A stretch of 64,000 nucleotides of DNA from Pseudomonas sp. N040 (GTDB lineage Bacteria > Pseudomonadota > Gammaproteobacteria > Pseudomonadales > Pseudomonadaceae). Location: contig NZ_JADOBE010000004.1 of assembly GCF_015637705.1 (NCBI RefSeq), forward strand, positions 248,001-312,000, written 5' to 3'. How positions within the stretch are numbered: position 1 is the first letter of the stretch; every line of letters starts with the position of its first letter. Of this stretch, positions 4,718-42,866 are shown piece after piece. The notes beneath the pieces were generated by a model. It made no database searches and was not told the DNA's origin. It saw only the letters and a list, made by a program, of their open reading frames with translations. Position numbers and translations under genes: made by a program.

Positions 4718-5113
4718 CTATGAGTCCTGGCGGTCGCGAAAATGATGGATCTGCCGGCGCTGCTTCTTGCTCGGCCGGCCATCGGTCTGCAGGCCCAGCG
4801 CCCCGGCCTTGCGCAACGCCGCCGCGGCTTCGCGCCGGCTGAGGCTGTCCGCCGTCTCGGCATACAGCAACTGCGCCTGCGCGGCCCCGCGGCGCACCAC
4901 AGACAGCGCCAGCACAACCACGCTGCGCTCCTCGAAGCCCTGGCGGATCAGGTACTCGTCACCGATGCGCGGCTCCTTGCCCGGCTTGCAGCGCTCGCCA
5001 CGGCAATGCACCTTGCCGCCCTCGATGGCTTCCTTGGCCAGCGCGCGGGTCTTGTAGAAGCGTGCCGCCCACAGCCACTTGTCCAGCCGCACCTTGTCTT
5101 CGCTGTCGTGCAT
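4718..5113 (-). CDS. hslR: Hsp15, S4-domain RNA-binding heat-shock protein
   Basis: The 131-residue product has an S4 RNA-binding fold at its N terminus (VRLDKWLWAARFYKTRALAK, about residues 8-27, then AIEGGKVHCRG) and a basic tail (KKQRRQIHHFRDR). Hsp15 binds 50S subunits carrying a stalled nascent chain with peptidyl-tRNA and helps recycle them. The length fits (E. coli Hsp15 is 133 residues). I chose the ATG at 5111-5113; a TTG codon directly in front is an alternative that adds one residue. It is about 95 bases upstream of hslO on the same strand. Confidence 0.95.
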   Translation of the reverse strand: MHDSEDKVRLDKWLWAARFYKTRALAKEAIEGGKVHCRGERCKPGKEPRIGDEYLIRQGFEERSVVVLALSVVRRGAAQAQLLYAETADSLSRREAAAALRKAGALGLQTDGRPSKKQRRQIHHFRDRQDS

Positions 5114-5181
5114 CAATTGCTCACCCCGTCCAGAGTCTCAGTGCAGTTGCCCGCACGTCCATCTAGAATGCCGCGAAAGCC

Positions 5182-5673
5182 GTGCGGATAACCACCTTGA
5201 AAACCTTCGAACAACTTGGCGTGATCGGCCTCAGCGAATGGATCGCCCTGCCGGAACTGGGCATGGTCGGCCTGCGCGCCAAGATCGACACCGGCGCCAG
5301 CACCTCCAGCCTGCACGCCAGCGATATCCAGCCCTTCGAGCGCAAAGGTGAACGCTGGGTTCGCTTTACTGCGCACTTCGGCACACTGGTGCAGCGCGGC
5401 CACCGCTGCGAAGCCCGGCTGATCAGCGTCAAGACCATCCGCAGTTCGAATGGCCAGACCCAGAGTCGCTACCTGATCCGCACCACCCTGGCGCTGGGCG
5501 AGCGCGCCTGGCCGGTGGACTTCACCCTGGCCTGCCGCAAGACCATGCGCTTCCGCGTGCTGCTCGGCGCCAAGGCGCTGATCGACGGCCAGTGGCTGGT
5601 CAACCCGGCGCTCAACTACGCCCAGCAGCAACCCCTGATGCCCACCTTCGACTCCCCGGCCGGTGACTCATGA
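5182..5673 (+). CDS. rimB: RimB-type retropepsin-like protease (ATP-dependent zinc protease family)
   Basis: The 163-residue protein carries the aspartic-protease-like signature [14 protein letters not shown], with D36-T37-G38-A39 and a core of beta strands afterwards, and belongs to the family often annotated as ATP-dependent zinc protease. In Pseudomonas such a gene sits directly before rimK, and RimA/RimB have been proposed to modulate RimK-driven glutamylation of ribosomal protein S6. The GTG at 5182 is the start that gives a full-length family member; no rimA-like gene is visible here. Its TGA overlaps the ATG of rimK (ATGA at 5670-5673), so the two are translationally coupled. Confidence 0.85.
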
Positions 5674-6575
5674 AAATTGCCATCCTGTCGCGCAACCCGC
5701 GACTGTATTCGACCCGCCGGCTGGTGGAAGCCGGCAGCCAGCGCGGCCACGAGATGCTGGTGATCGACACCCTGCGCGCCTACATGAACATTGCCACCCA
5801 CAAGCCGCAGATCCATTACCGCGGCCAGGCTCTTGAGGGTTTCGATGCGGTGATCCCGCGGATCGGCGCCTCGGTGACCTTCTACGGCTGCGCGGTGCTG
5901 CGCCAGTTCGAGATGATGGGCGTGTTCCCGCTCAACGAGTCGGTCGCCATCAGCCGCTCACGCGACAAGCTGCGCGCGCTGCAACTGTTGTCGCGCAAGG
6001 GCATCGGCCTGCCGGTCACCGGCTTTGCCCACTCACCGGACGACATCCCCGACCTGATCCAGATGGTCAATGGCGCGCCGCTGGTGATCAAGGTGCTGGA
6101 GGGCACCCAGGGCATCGGCGTGGTGCTGTGCGAAACGCAGAAGGCCGCCGAATCGGTGATCGAAGCCTTCATGGGGCTGAAGCAGGACATCATGGTGCAG
6201 GAGTACATCAAGGAAGCCGGCGGCGCCGACATTCGCTGCCTGGTAGTCGGCGACAAGGTGATCGCCTCGATGAAGCGTCAGGCCAAGCCCGGCGAATTCC
6301 GCTCCAACCTGCACCGCGGCGGCACCGCCAGCCTGATCAAGATCACCCCGGAAGAACGCTCGACCGCGGTGCGCGCGGCCAAGGTGATGGGGCTACGGGT
6401 AGCCGGCGTGGACATCCTGCGTTCCGCCAACGGGCCGCTGGTGATGGAGGTCAACTCCTCGCCAGGGCTGGAAGGCATCGAAACCACCAGCGGGATCGAT
6501 ATTGCTTCTTTGGTTATCGAGTATCTGGAAAACAATGCCGAACCGGGAATGACGCGGACCAAGGGGTCGGGCTGA
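5670..6575 (+). CDS. rimK: Ribosomal protein S6--L-glutamate ligase (ATP-grasp)
   Basis: RimK adds glutamate residues to the C terminus of ribosomal protein S6 with ATP. The 301-residue product starts [18 protein letters not shown], the standard RimK beginning, and keeps ATP-grasp hallmarks: the ATP-binding [13 protein letters not shown] loop, the FIKEAGG...DIRCLVVG region (here [12 protein letters not shown]), and the Mg-binding [14 protein letters not shown] end (about residues 261-274). Length equals the E. coli enzyme (300). It overlaps rimB by 4 bases and is followed by a hairpin terminator; the next gene, envZ, converges on it. Confidence 0.96.
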
Positions 6576-6588
6576 GTCGGCGCGCGGT

Positions 6589-6614
6589 GGACGGATTGTC
6601 AATCCGTCCGTTTT
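6589..6614 (+). terminator. Hairpin between rimK and envZ
   Basis: GGACGGATT (6589-6597), loop GTC and AATCCGTCC (6601-6609) make a perfect 9-bp stem followed by GTTTTCT. It lies directly after rimK and probably terminates it. Its stem word GGATT/AATCC resembles the outer word of the 1332-2004 repeat, so it may also be a repeat-derived terminator. Confidence 0.65.
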
Positions 6615-7940
6615 CTACCCCTGTCCGTTGCTCGCCTCACGCGGCAACAACAACCCCAATGGCAGGCACACCCGTGCTTCCAGTCCACCGCCAGCACGGT
6701 TGCGCAACTCGACGCTGCCGCCATGCAGCGCTGCAATCCGCCGCACAATCGCCAGGCCCAACCCGGAGCCCTTGCCGCCACGGGCACTGTCGCCGCGGAT
6801 GAACGGATTGAACAACGCATCCAGTTCTGCCTCCCCCAGCCCCGGACCACGATCCAGCACGCTCAGCACCAGATAGGGCGCGGTGCGACCGCCCTCCACT
6901 GCCGCCGCGACCTCAACGCCCTGCCCGCCATAATGCAAGGCATTGTCGATCAGGTTGACCAGCAGACGCTTGATCGATACCCGCCGCAGCGACAGCTCCG
7001 GCAACGGTTCAAGGCACAAGCGCACCCGTTCGGCCGGCTGGTTGTACGGCGCCACCGCCTCACGGATCAGCGCCGCCAGGTCGAGCGGCTCCAGCGGCTC
7101 ATCACTGCCGTCACGGATAAACGCCAGGAACTGGTCGAGAATCGCGTCCATGTCTTCGATGTCGCGCACCATATCGGCGGCCAACTCCGGATCACTGCGC
7201 ATGAACTCGATGGCCAGGCGCAAGCGCGTCAAGGGTGTGCGCAGGTCATGGGAAACCCCGGCCAGCATCAGCTCGCGCTCGCGCGCTGCGCGCTCGACAT
7301 CCTCGGCCATCTGGTTGAAGGCCCGGTAGACCTCGGCCATTTCGTGCGGCGAGTCGGTCATCGGCAGCCTGACACTGCGGCCCTGACCAAACTCCCGCGC
7401 CGCCACCACCAGGCGCTTGAACGGAGCATTCAGCTGGCCGACAAAAATCCACGCCGCCGCCGTCGACAACAGGCCGATGCCGAGGAACCAGCCAAGCACG
7501 CCCAAAATCCGGTCGCCGCTCAGCGGAAACGGATACAGCGGCACCATCACCCAGTCGGCGCCCAGCGCCGGGGCATACACCCAGAGCGCCGACTGGCCAT
7601 GCATGCGCAGGCGAATCTGGGTATCCGGCCCCAACTCCGTGCGCATCTGCTGCAGGAACACGCGGCTGTAGGGAAAATGCTCTTCGGCCTTGGGTACCTC
7701 ATTCAACGGGGCCTGACGCAAGCCTGTGGCTGCGGCGATCTGGTCGCGCTGGTTTTCATCCGCCGCCCAGTAGGCGCGCAAGGTCAATGCGGCGCCGTGG
7801 GTGTATTGCCGGTCCACCAGCATCTCTTCATTGAGCATCAGGTAAGCCAGCGTCAGCGCCTTGGAAAACAGCACGACCAGCAACACCAGCAAAATGATCC
7901 GGGCAAAGAAGCTTTGCGGAAACCAGGAGGGCATTTTCAT
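6615..7940 (-). CDS. envZ: EnvZ/AmgS-type sensor histidine kinase
   Basis: A 441-residue inner-membrane sensor kinase. Residues about 12-34 form the first membrane helix and about 143-168 the second, enclosing a periplasmic sensor of roughly 110 residues. A HAMP linker follows, then the dimerisation/phospho-acceptor box AGVSHDLRTPLTRLRLAIE with H231, and a HATPase domain with N (LLVNLIDNALHYG), G1 (DRGPGLGE) and G2 (GKGSGLGLAIV) boxes. It pairs with the response regulator just upstream (gap 98 bases). In P. aeruginosa this pair at the same chromosomal position is called AmgS/AmgR and controls the envelope-stress response to aminoglycosides; transfer of that role here is inference. Confidence 0.93.
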   Translation of the reverse strand: MKMPSWFPQSFFARIILLVLLVVLFSKALTLAYLMLNEEMLVDRQYTHGAALTLRAYWAADENQRDQIAAATGLRQAPLNEVPKAEEHFPYSRVFLQQMRTELGPDTQIRLRMHGQSALWVYAPALGADWVMVPLYPFPLSGDRILGVLGWFLGIGLLSTAAAWIFVGQLNAPFKRLVVAAREFGQGRSVRLPMTDSPHEMAEVYRAFNQMAEDVERAARERELMLAGVSHDLRTPLTRLRLAIEFMRSDPELAADMVRDIEDMDAILDQFLAFIRDGSDEPLEPLDLAALIREAVAPYNQPAERVRLCLEPLPELSLRRVSIKRLLVNLIDNALHYGGQGVEVAAAVEGGRTAPYLVLSVLDRGPGLGEAELDALFNPFIRGDSARGGKGSGLGLAIVRRIAALHGGSVELRNRAGGGLEARVCLPLGLLLPREASNGQG

Positions 7941-8000
7941 CTAAGACTCAGCGCAGGGTGAAAAACGGCCGGAGGCCTTTTCCAGCAGATGGCTCTAACA

Positions 8001-8032
8001 GGTGGACAAGCCGCTAGCGGCGTTATCCACCC
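8001..8032. repeat. REP-like palindrome between ompR and envZ
   Basis: GGTGGA at 8001-8006 and TCCACC at 8027-8032 flank a CCGCTAGCGG core (8011-8020). This is the style of short palindromic repeat seen elsewhere in the window (43458-43535, 30918-30996). It lies within the two-component operon, where it may affect the relative level of kinase message. Confidence 0.55.
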
Positions 8033-8038
8033 TACTTG

Positions 8039-8773
8039 CTACGCCTTGGCACCATCCGGGACGAACACATAGCCAACCCCCCAAACCGTCTGGATATAGC
8101 GCGGCTTGGCCGGGTCCGGCTCGATCATGCGGCGCAGGCGCGAGATCTGCACGTCGATGGAGCGCTCCAGCGCATCCCACTCGCGGCCACGCGCCAGGCT
8201 CATCAGTTTGTCGCGGGTCAACGGCTCGCGGGCGTGCTGCACCAGCGCCTTGAGCACGGCGAATTCGCCGGTGGTGAGCATGTGCAACTCATCACCTTTT
8301 TTCAGTTCACGGGTGCCGAGAAACAACTGGTACTCGCCGAAGGTCACCACATCATCGTCACTGGTCGGCGCACCCGGCACTTGCGGTGCCTGACGGCGCA
8401 ACACCGCCTTGATCCGCGCCAGCAGTTCGCGCGGATTGAATGGCTTGGCCAGATAGTCGTCGGCACCGCCCTCCAGCCCCTGTATGCGGCTGGCCTCGTC
8501 GCCCTTGGCGGTGAGCATGATGATCGGCATCTGGTTGTCGCCGGCGCGCAAACGGCGGCAGGCGGACATGCCATCCTCGCCGGGGAGCATCAGATCCAGT
8601 ACCAGCAGATTGAAAATTTCCCGCGACAGCAGGCGATCCATCTGTTCGACGTTTTCCACCGAGCGCACCCGGTAACCTTCTTCGCTGAGAAAGCGGTCGA
8701 GCAGGCTACGCAACCGCGCATCGTCATCCACGATGAGGATCTTTTCACCTTCAGCCACTGCGGAACTGTTCAT
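8039..8773 (-). CDS. ompR: OmpR/AmgR-type response regulator
   Basis: A 244-residue cytoplasmic transcription factor of the OmpR/PhoB class: receiver domain (acidic triad around VDDDAR near residues 15-18, phospho-acceptor D60 in LLVLDLMLPG, conserved K in MLTAKGDE) and a C-terminal winged helix (about 145-240). Two starts are possible: GTG at 8779 or ATG at 8773. AAGGAG covers 8779-8784, so the GTG overlaps the ribosome site while the ATG is 5 bases from it; I chose the ATG. First gene of an operon with envZ. Confidence 0.95.
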   Translation of the reverse strand: MNSSAVAEGEKILIVDDDARLRSLLDRFLSEEGYRVRSVENVEQMDRLLSREIFNLLVLDLMLPGEDGMSACRRLRAGDNQMPIIMLTAKGDEASRIQGLEGGADDYLAKPFNPRELLARIKAVLRRQAPQVPGAPTSDDDVVTFGEYQLFLGTRELKKGDELHMLTTGEFAVLKALVQHAREPLTRDKLMSLARGREWDALERSIDVQISRLRRMIEPDPAKPRYIQTVWGVGYVFVPDGAKA

Positions 8774-8890
8774 GCGCACTCCTTGATTCGATAGGCGGGG
8801 GCATTATTACCCAAGGCTGGCGGCATCACCCCGATGCATTGTTAGCAGATTTTTCCCGACCGGGTGCAGTGCAGCCATTCTGTCGGTGCT

Positions 8891-8896
8891 TATAAT
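8891..8896 (+). promoter_or_regulatory. Putative -10 element of tex
   Basis: A perfect TATAAT at 8891-8896 lies 80 bases before the tex start, in the gap divergent from ompR. No clear -35 hexamer at the right spacing is visible, so the promoter is only half supported. Confidence 0.45.
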
Positions 8897-8975
8897 GCCC
8901 CGGCATTTTCACCGGCGTTCAGAACATGCCGGAATTCTTATTTATTTCAAGCAGTTAATTTACTTCGGGAAGCAC

Positions 8976-11312
8976 ATGGACAACATCAACCAGCGCATCG
9001 CCGCCGAACTCTCCGCTCTGGCCAATAGCCGGGTTCTACCGCAGCAGGTTGCGGCCGCCGTGGCGCTGCTCGACGAAGGCTCCACCGTGCCGTTCATCGC
9101 CCGTTACCGCAAGGAAGTGACCGGCAGCCTCGACGACACCCAGCTGCGCCACCTGGAAGAACGCCTGCGCTACCTGCGCGAACTGGACGAACGCCGCGCG
9201 GCGATCCTCGCCAGCATCGATGAGCAGGGCAAGCTGACCGCCGAGCTGACCCGCGAGATCAACCTCGCCGAGACCAAAACGCGCCTGGAAGATTTGTACC
9301 TGCCGTACAAGCAGAAACGCCGCACCAAGGGCCAGATCGCCCTGGAAGCCGGCCTCGGCGCGCTGGCCGATGCGCTGTTCAACGACCCGACGCTGAACCC
9401 GGAAGAACAGGCCGCGCGCTTCGTCGACGCCGAGAAAGGCGTGGCCGATGTGAAGGCCGCCCTCGAAGGCGCCAAGTACATCCTCATGGAGCGCTTTGCC
9501 GAAGACGCCACCCTGCTGGAGAAGCTGCGCAGCTTCCTCAAGCAGGAAGCCACCCTCAGCGCCAGACTGCTGCCGGGCAAGGAACAGGAAGGCGCCAAGT
9601 TCAGTGACTACTTCGAGCATGACGAGCCGCTGCGCAGCGTACCCTCGCACCGCGCCCTGGCCATCTTCCGCGGCCGCAACGAGGGTGTGCTCAGCGCCAG
9701 CCTGAAAGTCGGCGACGAAGCCCCGGGCAGCATGCACCCCGGCGAAGGCATGATCGGCGAGCGCTTTGGCATCACCAATCAAGGCCGCGCCGCCGACAAG
9801 TGGCTGAGCGAAGTAGTGCGCTGGACCTGGAAGGTCAAGCTCTACACCCACCTGGAAACCGACCTGTTCGGCGAACTGCGCGAGCAGGCCGAGAGCGAGG
9901 CGATCAACGTCTTCGCGCGCAACCTGCACGACCTGCTGCTGGCCGCCCCGGCCGGCCCGCGCGCCACCCTAGGCCTCGACCCCGGTCTGCGCACCGGTTG
10001 CAAAGTGGCGGTGGTGGATGCCACCGGCAAGCTGCTGGATACCGCCACCGTCTACCCGCACGTACCGCACAACCGCTGGGACGAAACGCTGGCTGTACTG
10101 GGCAAGCTTTGCGCCAAACACCGCGTCGAACTGATCGCCATCGGCAACGGTACCGCCAGCCGGGAGTCCGACAAGTTGGCCATCGAACTGATCAAACTGC
10201 TGCCGGAACTGAAAATGACCAAAGTCATGGTCAGCGAAGCCGGTGCCTCGGTGTATTCGGCCTCGGAACTGGCGGCCAGGGAATTCCCCGAGCTGGACGT
10301 ATCCATCCGCGGCGCCGTGTCCATCGCCCGCCGCCTGCAGGACCCGCTGGCCGAACTGGTGAAGATCGAGCCGAAATCCATCGGTGTCGGCCAGTACCAG
10401 CACGACGTCTCCCAGCTGCAACTGGCGCGCTCGCTGGATGCGGTGATCGAGGATTGCGTGAACGCCGTCGGCGTCGACCTGAACACCGCTTCCGCCGCGC
10501 TGCTGGCGCGCATCTCCGGCCTGAACAGCACGCTGGCGCAGAACATCGTCGCCCACCGCGATGCGCATGGCGCGTTCAGGACCCGCGATGCACTCAAGCA
10601 GGTGCCGCGTCTGGGTGAGAAAACCTACGTGCTGGCCGCCGGCTTCCTGCGCGTGATGAATGGCGACAACCCGCTGGATGCCTCGGCCGTGCACCCGGAA
10701 ACCTACCCGCTGGTGCAACGCATCGCCGCCGATACCGGCCGCGACATCCGTTCGCTGATCGGCGATTCCGGCTTCCTCAAGCGCCTCGACCCCAAGCAGT
10801 TCACCGACGAAAACTTCGGCCTGCCGACCGTCACCGACATCCTCAAGGAACTCGACAAGCCCGGCCGTGACCCGCGTCCGGAGTTCAAGACCGCCGAGTT
10901 CCAGGACGGCGTCGAGAGCCTCAAGGACCTCAAGCCGGGCATGATTCTCGAAGGCGTGGTGACCAACGTCACCAACTTCGGCGCCTTCGTCGACATCGGC
11001 GTGCATCAGGATGGGCTGGTGCATATCAGTGCGCTGTCGGAGAAGTTCGTCAAGGACCCCTACGAAGTGGTCAAGGCCGGCGATATCGTCAAGGTCAAGG
11101 TCATGGAGGTGGACATCCCGCGCGCGCGCGTCGGTCTGTCGATGCGCATGAGCGATACCCCCGGCGAAAAGGCCGAAGGCCCCCGTGGCGGCGCACAGAA
11201 CCGTGGCAATGCGCCACGCACGGAACGGCACTCGGCACAGGACAAACCGGCGCCGGTGAATGCCGGCATGGCCGCACTGTTCGCCGGCGCCAAGCAACTG
11301 AAGAAACGCTGA
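8976..11312 (+). CDS. tex: Tex transcription accessory protein
   Basis: A 778-residue nucleic-acid-binding protein related to eukaryotic Spt6. In order it shows the helical N-terminal region ([20 protein letters not shown], about 27-46), a YqgF/RNase H-like core ([17 protein letters not shown], about 330), helix-hairpin-helix units ([17 protein letters not shown] onwards, about 500-560) and a C-terminal S1 domain ([19 protein letters not shown], about 655-725), then a disordered basic tail. Length is typical of Pseudomonas Tex. The frame is open upstream to 8886, but the ATG at 8976 starts [12 protein letters not shown] as in relatives. A 5' leader of about 70 bases lies behind the TATAAT at 8891. 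Confidence 0.96.
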
Positions 11313-35290: not shown

Positions 35291-36232
35291 ATGAAGCGCA
35301 GCAACATCAATCTGCTCATTTGCCTGGACATGCTCCTCACGGAGAAATCCGTCACGCGCGCCGCCGAACGTCTGGAAATGAGTCAACCAGGCATGAGCAA
35401 TGCCCTGGCCAGGCTTCGCGAATTGACGGGTGACCCGTTACTGATCCGCTCTGGCAATGGTTTCATCCTGACCGAGCGCGCGCTGTCGCTGGCACAGAAG
35501 GTGCGCAGCGGCATCCAGCTGATGGAAGACATCTTCAGCAACGAGGGGCCGGTCAACCTCGCAAACGCGAAAGGAACCATCACACTGGCCGCCGCCGAAT
35601 CCACCTCGATGGCCTTTGTGCCGGCACTGGCTGAGATCCTCGGCAAAACCGCGCCTGGCATGTCACTGAATGTCCGGGCGCCTGACCCGGAACACATCCG
35701 CGAGTGGTTGAGCGAAGGGGAGTGCGACATAGCCCTGGGGTATTTCCCCGATCTGCATCCGGACCTGCGACGAGCCCCTCTGTTCCAGCAACCACTGTCC
35801 TGCATCAGTGCCCGCGAGCGGACGCCGAATGGCACGATTTCACGCTCCGAATACCTGGAGCGGCAGCATGTGGTGTTCGGCTCTCCGTTTTCACCACGCT
35901 CATCATTCGAGCAAATGCTCACGACTGAACTCGCGGCCGCTGGCTTCGAGCGCTTGCGCACGGTTCACGTATCGTCTGCGCTGCTGGCGCCGTACATAGT
36001 GTCCGGCTCCTCCCTCATCGCGACCATGCCGACCTGGTTCTGCCGGCACTATGCGAGTTTCCTCCCGCTGACCGTCTCGCCCTTGCCGTTCCAGGTCTCG
36101 CCGCTGGAGACGGACATGATCTGGCACGAGCGCACGCATCGCCAGGCCGTGCATGTCTGGTTGCGCGACACCCTGCGCAGCATCATTCCCGGTGCCGCGG
36201 CAACCGGCATGGATATCCGGATGGAAACCTGA
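35291..36232 (+). CDS. LysR-family transcriptional regulator
   Basis: A 313-residue LysR-type regulator. The helix-turn-helix is at about residues 17-40 (KSVTRAAERLEMSQPGMSNALARLREL), followed by a periplasmic-binding-protein-like effector domain. The effector is unknown. It is divergent from the cupin gene, with a palindrome in between, so it probably controls that gene and itself. Whether it also controls the peptide cluster 1.2 kb downstream is open. The ATG at 35291 lacks a strong Shine-Dalgarno sequence. Confidence 0.9.
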   Translation: MKRSNINLLICLDMLLTEKSVTRAAERLEMSQPGMSNALARLRELTGDPLLIRSGNGFILTERALSLAQKVRSGIQLMEDIFSNEGPVNLANAKGTITLAAAESTSMAFVPALAEILGKTAPGMSLNVRAPDPEHIREWLSEGECDIALGYFPDLHPDLRRAPLFQQPLSCISARERTPNGTISRSEYLERQHVVFGSPFSPRSSFEQMLTTELAAAGFERLRTVHVSSALLAPYIVSGSSLIATMPTWFCRHYASFLPLTVSPLPFQVSPLETDMIWHERTHRQAVHVWLRDTLRSIIPGAAATGMDIRMET

Positions 36233-36334
36233 TCAGGTGCGCCTATAGCTGAATGCAATGCCGGCATTGCGCCAACTTGATGGTTGTCCCGCACAAGAAT
36301 GACTACCGTCACTGCTCTTTTCAGGGGATGCAGC

Positions 36335-37081
36335 ATGTTTGACTGGACAGGTGAAGACAGTGTGCGCGACGGGGTGCGCTGCCGCACTTTTCGACCGCAA
36401 TCCGAAGGTGGCCTGGCGTCAGCCGCGTTGTTTGACCGCCCGCAAGCAGCCGCAGATAGCCGTGCGCCGATAATCCTGATGCAGCATGGCGGCAGCACCT
36501 GCAAGACCGGGCTGGATATATGGGATGTGGCGACCGAACTGGTCGGCCGCCAAGGCTTGCGCCTGATCGCCCTCGACGGCCCCGTGCACGGGGCGCGCGC
36601 AGTGGGCATTGATCCTGGCGATGGCGCCTTGGTGCGTGCGCGTTTCTTTGAACTCTGGGGCTCGGATCCCGGGCATGTGCTGCCGTACGTCCAGCGCTGG
36701 CAGGCGCTGCTTGACGAGATTCAGGAAGCCCTGAACGGTGTGCCATGCATGTGGCTTGGGCTGTCGATGGGCACAGCCTACGGTCTGCCGTTGCTGGCTA
36801 TCGACAAGCGCATCGCGCGCGCCGTAGTGGGCATGTGGGGCACCAGCTTCGTCAACTCCAGGCGCCTGGTCAGCGATGCGGCCGCGGTAAGCTGCCCGGT
36901 ACTCTTCCAGCAGAAGTGGGACGACGAACTGTTTTCCCGCGAAGGGCAGCTGGAACTGTTTGATGCGCTGGGCACTGCCGATAAGCGCCTGCACGTCTAC
37001 CCGGGAGGGCATGTCCGCCTGGGCACCGAGCAACTGCAGGATATTGCCCGGTTTCTGCATGCCGATCAGCTGCAATCCTGA
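36335..37081 (+). CDS. Alpha/beta-fold hydrolase
   Basis: A 248-residue alpha/beta hydrolase. The oxyanion segment is MQHGGST (about 49-55), the nucleophile elbow is GLSMGT with S144, the acid probably lies in KWDDELF (about 201-207) and the His in PGGHVRLG (about 225-232). Substrate is unknown. The ATG at 36335 follows AGGGGA at good spacing; an in-frame start 17 codons upstream is less likely. It follows the LysR gene by 102 bases on the same strand and may be co-transcribed or separate. Confidence 0.82.
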   Translation: MFDWTGEDSVRDGVRCRTFRPQSEGGLASAALFDRPQAAADSRAPIILMQHGGSTCKTGLDIWDVATELVGRQGLRLIALDGPVHGARAVGIDPGDGALVRARFFELWGSDPGHVLPYVQRWQALLDEIQEALNGVPCMWLGLSMGTAYGLPLLAIDKRIARAVVGMWGTSFVNSRRLVSDAAAVSCPVLFQQKWDDELFSREGQLELFDALGTADKRLHVYPGGHVRLGTEQLQDIARFLHADQLQS

Positions 37082-37093
37082 ATCACCGCTGAT

Positions 37094-37284
37094 TTACGGG
37101 GCATGACCGTGGTGACCGTTCGGCGCCACGGCGATCGCCCTGCAGCATTCATGCTCAAGCTTCGCGCGCGCAGCCGGCAGGTGATGCACAGCCAGCTGAT
37201 CGGCAGAGAGCCCCAACCCTGCAGAAGCTGGAGTGCCTTATCTGCTTGCTCGAATTGATCCAGCAAGCTGCTTGCGGGCTCCAT
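37094..37284 (-). pseudogene. Possible frameshifted small gene
   Basis: On the minus strand an ATG at 37284 opens a frame reading LLDQFEQADKALQLLQG, after which the coding-like reading moves to another frame: LGLSADQLAVHHLPAARAKL, ending at TAA 37094-37096 with a HHGH tail and a CC pair. A single missing base near 37215 would join them into one protein of about 64 residues. Both halves have GC-rich third positions and helical composition. No family is recognised and no good ribosome site is seen, so it may be a gene remnant or chance. Confidence 0.3.
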
Positions 37285-37398
37285 CGGCGCACAGCCGCGC
37301 CGGTCAGCGACGGCACCTGCAGGCATGGCAACAATTCTGCCGGATTTCACTCACTGCAGCGCCGGAAGCGCTTGACCGCTTCTGCAGGCAGGCTCGAC

Positions 37399-37426
37399 TT
37401 GCACTTCGAGGCGGGCAGTGTATTGT
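37399..37426 (+). promoter_or_regulatory. Putative sigma-70 promoter of the repeat-peptide gene
   Basis: TTGCAC (37399-37404) and TATTGT (37421-37426) are spaced by 16 bases. A start near 37433 would leave a short leader of about 22 bases containing the GAGGGA ribosome-binding site. Each hexamer matches consensus at four of six bases. Confidence 0.45.
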
Positions 37427-37454
37427 TTGCAATTCATCACCTGAGGGAATTCTA

Positions 37455-37583
37455 ATGACTGTCAAATTTGATATCGCCAAGCTACTGGGTTTCCGCATTT
37501 CTAGTGCGCATTCGGCCGGCGCAAAGACCGGGCTCAAGGCTGGAGTCAAGGTCGGCATGAAGGCCGGCGTCAAGCCCGTCTGA
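37455..37583 (+). CDS. Repeat-containing precursor peptide of a putative RiPP pathway
   Basis: A 42-residue peptide gene with a strong ribosome site: GAGGGA at 37443-37448, six bases before the ATG. Residues 1-20 (MTVKFDIAKLLGFRISSAHS) look like a helical leader. Residues 21-40 are five exact-register tetrapeptides of form xGxK (AGAK, TGLK, AGVK, VGMK, AGVK), followed by PV. The repeat is visible in DNA as a 12-base period with degenerate codons, so selection acts on the amino acids. The tail carries five Lys and no Cys, Asp or Glu. A terminator and then two peptide-modification-type enzymes follow on the same strand. Assignment as a RiPP precursor is inference from this layout; it could also act as a cationic peptide without modification. 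Confidence 0.75.
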   Translation: MTVKFDIAKLLGFRISSAHSAGAKTGLKAGVKVGMKAGVKPV

Positions 37584-37645
37584 AGCAGGCCGGTCGCGCC
37601 CTGCATAGCCGCGCTGCTGGATAAATCCGCTCAAATCAATTCCAG
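37584..37645. other. Short spacer after the peptide gene
   Basis: No further open frame with a ribosome-binding site is seen between the peptide stop and the hairpin. A second precursor copy is therefore not present here. Confidence 0.6.
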
Positions 37646-37680
37646 GCGACGCCGAAGGTCATTCGTCGTCGCTTTATTTT
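37646..37680 (+). terminator. Terminator/attenuator between peptide gene and modification genes
   Basis: GCGACGCCGAA (37646-37656), loop GGTCA and TTCGTCGTCGC (37662-37672) form an 11-position stem with a single C-T mismatch, followed by TTTATTTT (37673-37680). Placed 62 bases after the peptide stop and 40 bases before the next start codon, it would let most transcripts end after the peptide gene and a minority read through into the enzymes, as in many peptide-precursor operons. Confidence 0.8.
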
Positions 37681-37720
37681 GTGCACGCCGCAGAACCATC
37701 CTGCCGAGGCTGGAAGGGAT

Positions 37721-38704
37721 ATGACCCAGTTTGATTTCCATCCCGACGCCAGCCGCGCACTGTCCCTCGATCGCGGAATGCACCGCGAACTTGGCCTGAG
37801 CCTCAGGCACGTCTGCGAAGCCAGCAAAGACGCAATACCATTCGACCGGATCGGCATGACCCGGCTGACCGAGCAGTTATCGGGATCCGGCGTTGTTTCG
37901 CCAGCTGTGTTCGCCCGCTATTACGAGCTTGTCGAAGCCATAACAGGCGATCGGTTTGACGATGCGCGACGGCTGTTTGACGAGCTGGTCCGGGTCAAGC
38001 CGATGCCGCAGACCCTGCAGGTGGTTACGCTGGGCGACCCCGCGCTGGGTGAAGAATCAGAGCGCTACACCCGCTTGATGAATGCCGATACGAGTATCGA
38101 TCTGGGCTTCCTGCCGCCAGCCCCGGAGGTCGCCAGCGCTTTTCGTGAGCGCCTGGCTCGCGGCATGCAATTGCTGGATACCGCCCTGCCGGCGCTGGCT
38201 GGAGAGATTCGGGCGATCGTCCATCAGATTGTGATCGTTGGCAGCGATCCCGCGGCGAAATTTCAGTTCGACGGCGGCTCTCACTATCAACTCTGGGGCG
38301 CTCTGTTCCTCAACGGAAACTTCCACCCTGACGAGATCGCCGTTGCGGAAGTGCTGGCACACGAGTCCGCACATAGCCTGCTTTTCGGCTTCTGTACCCA
38401 TGAACCACTGGTCCGCAACGCCGACGAGGAACTTTTCAGCTCGCCACTGAGGGTCGACCAACGCCCCATGGACGGGATCTATCACGCCACCTATGTATCG
38501 GCGCGCATGCACTGGACCATGTCGCAACTGACCCACAGCGATGCGCTCGACGCCCGGCAGAAGGCGCGTGCCCATGCCGCCGCCGAAGCCGATGCCAGGA
38601 ATTTCGACGCCGGCTATGGCGTAGTGGCAGAACACGCCATCCTGAGCGACCTGGGGCGCAGCCTCATGGCATCAGCCAAGGCATACATGGACTCGGTCCG
38701 CTGA
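37721..38704 (+). CDS. HExxH-motif putative peptide hydroxylase
   Basis: The 327-residue protein carries HESAH (H214, E215, H218) preceded by EVLA, and about 25 residues later SPLR (241-244) and RPMDGIYHATYVSAR (248-262). This spacing and the second block match the family named HEXXH motif-containing putative peptide modification protein, now also called alpha-ketoglutarate-HExxH-type peptide beta-hydroxylase; H255 may be another metal ligand and R244/R248 may bind the co-substrate. The N-terminal half is helical. Despite HExxH it is not a typical protease. The ATG at 37721 is preceded by GGAAGGG, closely spaced; an in-frame GTG at 37679 is less likely because it lies in the terminator. Its target is presumably the repeat peptide just upstream. 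Confidence 0.8.
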   Translation: MTQFDFHPDASRALSLDRGMHRELGLSLRHVCEASKDAIPFDRIGMTRLTEQLSGSGVVSPAVFARYYELVEAITGDRFDDARRLFDELVRVKPMPQTLQVVTLGDPALGEESERYTRLMNADTSIDLGFLPPAPEVASAFRERLARGMQLLDTALPALAGEIRAIVHQIVIVGSDPAAKFQFDGGSHYQLWGALFLNGNFHPDEIAVAEVLAHESAHSLLFGFCTHEPLVRNADEELFSSPLRVDQRPMDGIYHATYVSARMHWTMSQLTHSDALDARQKARAHAAAEADARNFDAGYGVVAEHAILSDLGRSLMASAKAYMDSVR

Positions 38705-38746
38705 CCGCCAAACCGCAATGAAGCCATATCCGCATCTCGAGGCGAC

Positions 38747-39706
38747 ATGATCATTTTCGTGACCACCTGCAGCCATCGCGACACGCACCACGCAATCTCG
38801 AAGGCATTGCCGTTCGTCCGCCAGGCGGTCTATCCGCTCCTGTTCGCCAGGCGCAGCCTGCCCAGGGCAACCTATATCTTCAGTGACTTCGATCGTCTGA
38901 ACTTCTGGCAGCTGGAATACGCAGCGCACGTCTATCGACAGTTGCAGGCGGCCGGCTGCCGCGTACTCAATGATCCGGCGGCGGCCCTGCAGCGACTGCC
39001 ACTGCTTCGCCGACTGCGCCGGGCCGGCATCAACAGCTTCTCTGCCTGGCCGGCGGACGAACCGGAAGCGGTCGAGCGTTTTCCGGTGTTTATCCGCACG
39101 AAGTCGGCGCATCGCGGCAATCTCACCGACCTCCTGGGTGACGCTCAGGCAGTGCATGCGGAGCTGCGCCGCCTTGTCGCTGCCGGCTATCCCGTCAACG
39201 ACCTGATCATCGTCGAGTACCGAGCGGAGCCTGTGGGGAACGGCGTTTTCCGCAAATACTCGGTCTACCGGTTGGGCAACCGCTATGTGGCCGCGCCCAG
39301 CGTGCACGAAAGAAAATGGTCCGCCAAGATGGGCGAGGACGGCGTTGCCGGCGTCGAGGGTTACGCCGAAGACCTCGTCACGGTGCGAACCAACCCCCAT
39401 GAAGAAACGCTGCGCCGTGCATTCGAAATCGCGGCCATCGATTATGGACGTGCTGATTTCGGCGTGGTTGACGGACGCCCGGAGATCTACGAGATCAATA
39501 CCAATCCCATGATGCACGCTGCCGGATCACACCAGTTTGCCGATCGCGCCGAAGCATTGCGCATCTGCGTGGAAGCGCTGCATGCCGGTTTCCACGACCT
39601 CGACACCATCTCCAGCGGCCCGAAAATCCGGATTGCACCGCCGCACCTCCTGAGGAAGAAAGGCCGCAGGTACACACTGTTCCCGGGCTATCTCTGGCTG
39701 CCTTGA
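38747..39706 (+). CDS. ATP-grasp-like ligase of the peptide cluster
   Basis: A 319-residue protein with an ATP-grasp metal-binding end: ADFGVVDGRPEIYEINTNPM (about residues 236-255), giving D237, E249 and N251 in the order seen in ATP-grasp carboxylate-amine ligases. The segment VFIRTKSAHRG (about 114-124) may supply the ATP-binding Lys, and IIVEYRAEP (about 154-162) resembles the adenine-contact strand. The N terminus (MIIFVTTCSHRDTH) has no known domain. It follows the HExxH gene by 42 bases with GAGG before the ATG. I infer it activates a carboxylate with ATP and joins it to an amine, but the peptide core has no acidic side chain, so the carboxylate must be a C terminus or a small molecule. 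Confidence 0.75.
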   Translation: MIIFVTTCSHRDTHHAISKALPFVRQAVYPLLFARRSLPRATYIFSDFDRLNFWQLEYAAHVYRQLQAAGCRVLNDPAAALQRLPLLRRLRRAGINSFSAWPADEPEAVERFPVFIRTKSAHRGNLTDLLGDAQAVHAELRRLVAAGYPVNDLIIVEYRAEPVGNGVFRKYSVYRLGNRYVAAPSVHERKWSAKMGEDGVAGVEGYAEDLVTVRTNPHEETLRRAFEIAAIDYGRADFGVVDGRPEIYEINTNPMMHAAGSHQFADRAEALRICVEALHAGFHDLDTISSGPKIRIAPPHLLRKKGRRYTLFPGYLWLP

Positions 39707-39767
39707 GGTAGCGTCGCGCCGGCTTTCTCCGGCCGGCCTCCGCCAGCGGCCTCGCGCAGCAAACGCA
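39707..39767 (+). other. Spacer between ATP-grasp gene and possible small ORF
   Basis: It contains a GGCCGGCC-like inverted pair (GCCGG words at 39720-39737) but no T tract, so it is not clearly a terminator. The transcript of the peptide cluster may continue to the hairpin at 39950. Confidence 0.4.
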
Positions 39768-39944
39768 ATGTGGCGCCCGCAGTCTTGGTGGCTGAGTCAT
39801 TGGCCGCACCTGCTGGTAACAGGTGCCGGAGTCGCCCAGGCAGCGATCTCACAGCTGCATGCCCCGGCAGAGGTCATCGAAGGCACTGCAGAAGGCATTG
39901 CACTGCGCCAGAAATGCTTACGCAAACCACCCGCCGGGCCATAA
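39768..39944 (+). CDS. Possible 58-residue ORF at the end of the peptide cluster
   Basis: ATG at 39768 opens a frame of 58 codons to TAA at 39942-39944, 61 bases after the ATP-grasp gene and just before the cluster terminator. The product starts with a Trp-rich segment (MWRPQSWWLSHWPHLL), has a small-residue helix-like middle (VTGAGVAQAAISQL) and a basic tail with one Cys. Third codon positions are moderately GC-rich. There is no clear Shine-Dalgarno sequence and no recognised family, so it may be a chance ORF or an extra peptide of the cluster. Confidence 0.3.
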   Translation: MWRPQSWWLSHWPHLLVTGAGVAQAAISQLHAPAEVIEGTAEGIALRQKCLRKPPAGP

Positions 39945-39949
39945 ACGTC

Positions 39950-39980
39950 AAGGCCGCCCATTGGGCGGCCTTGGCTTTTA
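39950..39980. terminator. Strong hairpin between peptide cluster and gcvP
   Basis: AAGGCCGCCC (39950-39959) and GGGCGGCCTT (39963-39972) make a 10-bp stem with loop ATT, followed on the plus strand by GGCTTTTA. It separates two convergent units. The plus-strand T tract is better, but it lies only 20 bases after the gcvP stop and may serve both. Confidence 0.8.
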
Positions 39981-39992
39981 CTGCAGAAGCAC

Positions 39993-42866
<2,874 letters not shown>

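Follow-up and report, generated by a model that had tools for sequence, protein, structure and literature searches.

Three adjacent genes of Pseudomonas sp. N040 raise the question of what a short peptide of lysine-glycine repeats, a HExxH-type enzyme and an ATP-grasp protein may produce together. They lie on the forward strand, between positions 37455 and 39706, of the stretch analysed here (hereafter the window), which comprises 64,000 nucleotides (nt) of contig NZ_JADOBE010000004.1 (positions 248,001 to 312,000). A first-pass annotation of the sequence had interpreted them as a cluster for a ribosomally synthesized and post-translationally modified peptide (RiPP), and had made this reading depend on a small open reading frame (ORF) being conserved upstream of such enzyme pairs in relatives. 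Our analysis revealed such an ORF, with a leader and a core, upstream of the HExxH gene at 20 of the 21 loci of the clade defined below, the 21st being cut by a contig end, and we thus consider it very likely that the trio constitutes a RiPP pathway. Both enzymes quite probably act on the repeated units of the core. The scheme that we favour, at slightly better than an even chance, is a two-enzyme pathway in which the repeat lysines would be hydroxylated and then acylated with an outside acid.

In the 42-residue precursor (MTVKFDIAKLLGFRISSAHSAGAKTGLKAGVKVGMKAGVKPV) we infer the border between a leader, MTVKFDIAKLLGFRI, and a core, SSAHSAGAKTGLKAGVKVGMKAGVKPV, which holds four overlapping K-x-G-x-K units. 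Across all six frames of the window, its stop-to-stop segment is the only one with at least two such units. No NCBIfam model matched any of the 20 precursors scanned, and no Pfam model matched the precursor of the window, the only one scanned against that database. Seven close orthologues at 60-74% identity were picked by eye, omitting P0285, which carries a long extension at its N-terminus. KLLGFRIS is invariant in them, as are the five core lysines of the window peptide and all but one of its five core glycines; the residues between the lysines and glycines vary, and three of the orthologues carry extra repeats or insertions. The genomic set comprised 25 precursors, i.e. the ORFs of 20 loci including the window's (five in L043, two in L044). 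Most members follow the leader pattern hydrophobic-[DE]-x-x-K-[LM]-[LFM]-G-[FY]-[RK]-[ILV], with N or E replacing D, or R replacing K, in some; the exceptions are five clade precursors, namely those of L029 (RMLGLR), L031 (DLIGFR), L046 (KLLGYW), L068 (KLLGSQ) and L070 (KLLGNT). The leader is therefore largely kept and the core is variable or repeated, which is a hallmark of RiPPs. K-x-G-x-K occurs 49 times in the 25 precursors, against a mean of 2.8 and a maximum of 9 in 1000 shuffles, and at least once in 19 of them, counts that are partly circular in that some precursors were recognised by K/G or LLG patterns, and others by similarity or by reading frames. A profile of 20 precursors searched against 5.8 billion sequences matched 139 proteins at E<=10, including proteins of Histidinibacterium lentulum and of a Phycisphaeraceae metagenome-assembled genome (MAG). 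Among the 120 matches listed, 59 had E-values below 1e-6 and 114 contained K-x-G-x-K, a proportion biased by the query. Around the motif in these 120 relatives, G stands two positions ahead of the first lysine in 74% and A directly ahead of it in 36%, and V or I follows the lysine in 51%.

The clade consists of the loci scoring at least 249 bits to the HExxH profile plus the window, i.e. 21 loci in 19 genomes, with repeat fetches counted once; L009 and L010 are near-alike, and genomes G917 and G1121 contribute two loci each. At the truncated locus, L069, the contig starts inside the region and only ...RIGNKTGNKGD is left of the small ORF. An ATP-grasp enzyme of the window type is present at 17 of the 21 loci and a cyanophycin-synthetase-like one at three. 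Among the 14 largest ORF clusters of the clade loci, only those of the HExxH protein, the ATP-grasp protein and (by reading) the ORFs overlapping them in antisense span more than three loci; the remaining large clusters are syntenic stretches (L007/L009/L010 and L008/L045/L047), and no recurring transporter, protease or immunity gene was found among the 14. With the ATP-grasp protein as query, four contig loci were recovered, from two Burkholderiales MAGs (L007, L010), Harenicola maris (L008) and Rubrivivax sp. (L009), and each of the four has a HExxH gene directly preceded by a small ORF that encodes an LLGFK leader and K/G units.

Co-occurrence was also assessed through contigs of equal size, comparing the 120 listed of 620 HExxH proteins with the 120 listed of 588 ATP-grasp proteins. 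On contigs of at least 10 kilobases (kb), 20 of the 35 listed HExxH proteins share the exact contig size with a listed ATP-grasp protein, and 3 of the 35 with the precursor list, the window itself among them; with the limit lowered to 5 kb, the equal-size HExxH/ATP-grasp pairs number 24, and one further pair is one base apart. Furthermore, hydroxylase and ligase co-vary, the distances within the two families giving a Mantel r of 0.86 over 36 linked pairs, with 0 of 2000 permutations as high (the pairs being the window, 20 equal-size contig pairs and 15 loci, with L010 omitted and one ligase taken where there are two). The genes are rare: the ATP-grasp profile matched in 6 of 398 genomes of the phylum. 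With the HExxH profile, 7 of 385 genomes from the class of G406 had a match at E<=1e-20; at the stricter E<=1e-40 the figures were 2 of 10 for family f158, 10 of 248 for family f92 and 5 of 229 for the class to which the window belongs. A search of 115 relatives of the window gave a full-length match in its own genome only, with partial matches (22-31% identity) in five others.

The third protein had no Pfam match at E<=1 and reached no model's cut-off, its score against the D-Ala-D-Ala ligase model being 17.1 bits (cut-off 489). An ATP-grasp fold is predicted for it by an AlphaFold2 model (predicted local distance difference test score 87.1), with RimK, ArgX and LysX as nearest structures. 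The RimK models (PF08443, TIGR00768) did not match it at E<=1, and PF08443 does match the replacement partners in L030, L031 and L048. In L030, L031 and L067 the usual ligase is replaced by a cyanophycin-synthetase-like ATP-grasp protein (PRK14016 scores of 265 bits in L030, 260 in L031, and 99 and 47 in two pieces in L067; cut-off 877), and L029 and L043 have two copies each of the usual enzyme. Relatives without a HExxH gene were seen in L028, where the gene (7321-8406) adjoins a P450-like ORF by reading of ORFs, and in the plasmid loci L058 and L059. Since the relative in L059 (4229-5278; Paracoccus plasmid NZ_CP067229.1), annotated as hypothetical, sits within a polysaccharide cluster with no HExxH match in the stretch, the ATP-grasp family is broader than this pathway. 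A further match, in G139 (L016), had an E-value of 1.6e-7, its surroundings being viewed to 2.9 kb.

Ten more distant HExxH loci (L048-L057; 199.5 bits or less to the HExxH profile) extend this picture. An LLG-type leader ORF lies upstream in three of them, namely L048 (KLDTSKLLGFDV), L049 (KLDTGKLFGFSQ) and L050 (IDLKKLLSLKV), and none was seen in the six loci L052-L057. The L048 core, ...GANKVGDIKPSGVAKAAGVGKAVGLVK, is rich in K and G, and an ATP-grasp protein that matches PF13549, PF07478 and PF08443 is encoded in its neighbourhood. In L049 the core contains a different repeat, [DE]LGRLFSKRG[QV]VE, twice, and the partner protein combines AMP-binding, carrier and thioesterase domains; this locus (4773-8542) resembles a hybrid of ribosomal-peptide and nonribosomal-type parts. 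L050 (6332-8849) combines a HExxH gene, a KLLSLKV-leader peptide containing GAAKVG and an AMP-binding enzyme, with a second similar peptide frame just upstream. In L051 a repeat peptide of another kind (7190-7483; LDTT...TGK units) ends 4 nt ahead of the distant HExxH gene. Because L048, L049 and L050 carry LLG-type leader ORFs, the leader family extends beyond the 21-locus clade, and the distant HExxH loci give no clean negative control. Judged by sequence matches, the partner changes yet appears to remain a carboxylate-activating enzyme, whether one of several ATP-grasp kinds or an AMP-binding enzyme.

AMP-binding enzymes activate free acids, and their presence as partners therefore favours an outside acid. 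As such enzymes, forming adenosine monophosphate (AMP), take the partner's place in L049 and L050, our estimate for attachment of an outside acid to the peptide by the ligase rose from somewhat below even to even. In the pathway that we favour, the short KLLGFR leader would guide the HExxH hydroxylase to the precursor, the repeat lysines would be hydroxylated, and the same lysines would next receive, through the ATP-grasp ligase, an acyl group from an outside acid, for instance an amino acid. As the loci share no recurrent protease or transporter family, any leader removal or export would depend on other machinery.

RimK and LysX/ArgX activate the carboxylate of a polypeptide. In a similar manner, the ATP-grasp enzyme could activate the C-terminal carboxylate of the precursor and add an amino acid there, with the HExxH enzyme separately hydroxylating the repeats, and the predicted fold, nearest RimK/LysX, is consistent with this. 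However, the C-termini are not conserved. The last residues of the 120 listed precursors are G, V, S, R, A, D, T and nine others, and in L043, where one hydroxylase and two ligases accompany five tandem precursors (8236-9372), the tails are unlike (LPA, IER, GGF, LPQ, EIR), whereas the five resemble one another in leader and GxK units; the surroundings of this locus include phage- and integrase-like ORFs, by reading of ORFs. The AMP-binding partners in L049 and L050 also misfit activation of the peptide's own end. Given the unlike tails and these partners, we lowered C-terminal targeting, and an extension of the C-terminus by the ligase now seems rather unlikely.

By its sequence, the HExxH protein is a member of the known TIGR04267 peptide hydroxylase family (119.5 bits against the NCBIfam model, cut-off 40; no Pfam match at E<=1), and hydroxylase activity is predicted for it. 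Its motif is HESAH at residues 214-218, with SPLRVDQRPMDGIYH ending at H255, and H214, E215, H218 and H255 are invariant in 16 relatives. The predicted fold is nearest to the ChlB HExxH domain (8s5f, E 7.5e-12), a structure titled alpha-ketoglutarate-dependent oxygenase, and an alignment places an HE..H and an SPxRxDxRP..G..HA block in both the window protein and ChlH. Concerning the target residue, one study describes two activities of Pseudomonas HExxH enzymes, beta-hydroxylation of Gln and backbone cleavage at Ala, and a size rule inferred by its authors, with alpha-hydroxylation and cleavage at small residues and beta-hydroxylation at larger ones (PMC12636437). Applied here, this rule would predict beta-hydroxylation for lysine and cleavage for glycine. 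As both residues are near invariant, we give lysine about equal chances of being or not being the hydroxylated residue, glycine being the main alternative.

This alternative can be taken further: the HExxH enzyme would hydroxylate the alpha-carbon of glycine (or alanine) and cut the backbone, yielding short amidated lysine peptides that the ATP-grasp enzyme joins to something else. In K-x-G-x-K, conservation of the glycine is close to that of the lysines, and PosC of Pseudomonas alpha-hydroxylates and cleaves at Ala and partly at Gly, and beta-hydroxylates larger residues (PMC12636437). However, invariance of the lysines would then be unneeded, and the PosC and PflC clusters, here likened by description and not by sequence, have other partners and another core, so that we regard such cleavage as improbable.

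Closure of a ring by the ligase appears improbable to about the same degree, and a graspetide-like scheme, with lysine side chains linked to a carboxylate of the same peptide as macrolactams and hydroxylation as tailoring, slightly more so. Known ATP-grasp RiPP enzymes form such links, and some Asp/Glu is present in 95 of the 120 listed and 21 of the 25 genomic cores, e.g. ahead of the GxK units in L043. Against this, cores without Asp/Glu make up 25 of the 120 and 4 of the 25, the window's core among them, and hence a standard graspetide link cannot be general; in addition, the ligase has no Pfam match. Finally, it is very improbable that no peptide pathway exists, with the small ORF encoding a basic peptide that arose by chance or has a housekeeping role, and with the enzymes acting elsewhere: the lack of recurring transporter, protease or immunity genes and the ATP-grasp relatives without HExxH (L028, L058 and L059, one of them in a polysaccharide cluster) would agree with it, but 20 of 21 loci retain leader and core although their surrounding genes differ, L043 has its five tandem precursors, and the precursor profile gathered 139 proteins, 59 of the 120 listed with E-values below 1e-6.

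Several observations weigh against the proposed acylation of hydroxylated lysines. Besides the partial circularity of the motif counts, K-x-G-x-K is missing from 6 of the 25 genomic precursors (L029, L031, L066, L067, L068 and L070), which have only looser K/G units such as GAKIGKAP, and the repeat units of L049 and L051 are of another kind. L046 has no ATP-grasp enzyme of either kind alongside; the same genome also holds L043. The HExxH-family targets given in the passages covered of one report are Pro and, from earlier work, His, Asp, Phe and Gln, with no lysine (PMC13060819). Furthermore, the RimK/LysX-like fold and the cyanophycin-like replacements would fit a peptide carboxylate, and the RimK/LysX/ArgX precedent would favour C-terminal extension.

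A wider interpretation, which we advance tentatively and at less than even chances, is that of a new RiPP superclass built on the LLGF leader, with K-x-G-x-K arrays whose lysines the HExxH oxygenase hydroxylates and to which amino acids or other acids are attached independently of transfer RNA, giving branched polycationic peptides. As part of the same tentative proposal, its acid-activating slot might be interchangeable and be filled by at least two ATP-grasp families, by AMP-forming enzymes and even by carrier-domain enzymes. Elongation factor P carries a hydroxylated, aminoacylated lysine, and the proposed product would, by analogy, be its ribosomal-peptide counterpart.

The features of the locus are collected in Table 1. 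The 42-codon gene with its ribosome site, the common direction of the three genes and the strong terminator on the right had all been claimed in the first-pass annotation and were confirmed, as were the HExxH enzyme and, through the predicted fold, the ATP-grasp protein. The promoter-like sequence proposed as left bound was not recovered: a consensus scan of 37050-40020 gave a single site, at 39600, which is at chance level, and none at the left edge. Of the attenuator-like terminator, the hairpin and its T-run are present, and shuffling a 60-nt stretch 300 times gave an equally good fold in 8 cases; longer stretches are unremarkable (z -0.2 and -0.7), and we thus rate the support for a possible attenuator as moderate. 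The terminator stem (39947-39975; -28.1 kcal/mol) separates the trio from the 3' end of gcvP, a gene of the opposite strand, and could serve both strands, with its T-run on the forward one. No RNA element was matched by Rfam in 36000-41000. As start of the HExxH gene we took the ATG at 37721 in place of the TTG at 37679; the ATG gives 327 residues, the same length as in several close relatives, e.g. P0003 to P0005.

Table 1. Features of the three-gene locus (window coordinates) and replacement ligases at other loci (locus coordinates)
Feature	Position	Strand	Basis or remark
Ribosome-binding-site-like GAGGGA	37443..37448	+	Ends 6 nt ahead of the precursor ATG; read by eye in the sequence
Precursor peptide gene, 42 amino acids	37455..37583	+	Sequence; relatives at 20/21 clade loci
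Hairpin (37645-37673) then TTATTTTG, in the precursor-enzyme gap; possible partial terminator (attenuator)	37645..37681	+	Shuffle folding; moderate
Alpha-ketoglutarate-dependent HExxH-type peptide hydroxylase (predicted), 327 amino acids	37721..38704	+	TIGR04267 score, predicted fold, ChlH motif
ATP-grasp enzyme (predicted), 319 amino acids, family without Pfam match	38747..39706	+	Predicted fold
Intrinsic terminator, 13-pair stem (39947-39975) then TTTT	39947..39979	+	z -6.6
Cyanophycin-synthetase-like proteins	L030:8185-10005; L031:8885-10387; L067:4598-6414 (two overlapping frames)		

With regard to genome context, the G+C fraction is 0.62 in both enzyme genes, 0.57 in the precursor gene and 0.65 in the window, and the upstream LysR and hydrolase genes have 0.62 and 0.63. 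Behind gcvP in seven relatives (gcvP 79-83% identical), tblastn of the trio, the alpha/beta-hydrolase and LysR found no match in any of the seven stretches of 8.4-9.3 kb, which places the trio in a variable region. The alpha/beta-hydrolase gene (36284-37081), upstream and in the same direction, has a full match only in its own genome of 24, with weak partial matches in three others; it is a possible pathway peptidase, but not a recurring neighbour at the other loci. A defence or phage origin was considered and found no PADLOC or PHROGs match, and of eight stretches of viral contigs that fit a sequence pattern none encodes a relative. Plasmids gave distant HExxH matches only (4 records, 23.7-26.9% identity) and, from Deinococcus and Paracoccus, two ATP-grasp relatives with no HExxH match within 6 kb.

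If these readings hold, the substrate range of the HExxH oxygenases, a young family, would come to include lysine (or glycine), and an unnamed ATP-grasp family would gain a function, on a substrate small enough for one co-expression experiment. The pathway would be a compact one of three genes, sparse across distant bacteria, and the natural swapping of the acid-activating partner between unrelated enzyme families, together with the five-precursor locus, makes specificity directly testable. In the full-text literature, with supplementary files and most subscription papers outside its reach, no title or abstract joined a HExxH enzyme, an ATP-grasp protein and a lysine-glycine repeat precursor, in line with the earlier description of the combination as unfamiliar; among the matches listed for motif strings, the papers concern coronaviruses and are unrelated. 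Two further papers deal with biphenomycins (PMC12257519; PMC12707348). The gene set, which recurs in distantly related bacteria, likely makes a chemically modified peptide of a kind not found described in this literature.

Among known systems, the pfl/pos clusters of Pseudomonas (PflC, PosC) share with the window the same large HExxH family and a RiPP precursor with an N-terminal leader. In the parts of the study covered, their partners are an MNIO-nitroreductase fusion, GNAT and transporters, with no ATP-grasp protein reported, their leader is nitrile-hydratase-like and their core is poly-Gln plus ARMD (PMC12636437); the window precursor and its neighbours show neither the MNIO-nitroreductase partner nor the poly-Gln/ARMD core. 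The ChlB/ChlH HExxH domain (8s5f) and SjiH (22ob) resemble the window enzyme in predicted fold and in the HE..H and SPxRxDxRP..G block, at about 17-19% identity; they differ in that ChlB, a radical-SAM fusion, depends on a cyclophane installed beforehand (PMC12636437). The nitrilobacillin cluster pes likewise pairs a HExxH hydroxylase with an ATP-dependent carboxylate-activating enzyme; that enzyme is asparagine-synthetase-like and makes a C-terminal nitrile, an MNIO is present, and Pro and Asp are hydroxylated (PMC13060819). Graspetides (PsnB and relatives) have in common with the window an ATP-grasp enzyme and a short precursor, from which the window differs by its HExxH partner, by a ligase without Pfam match and by a core that, like 25 of the 120 listed, lacks the acidic side chain serving as link donor in graspetides. 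Finally, the RimK/LysX/ArgX amino-acid-to-protein ligases are 14-17% identical to the window ligase, which no RimK model matches and whose putative substrate is of a different kind, namely a small repeat peptide.

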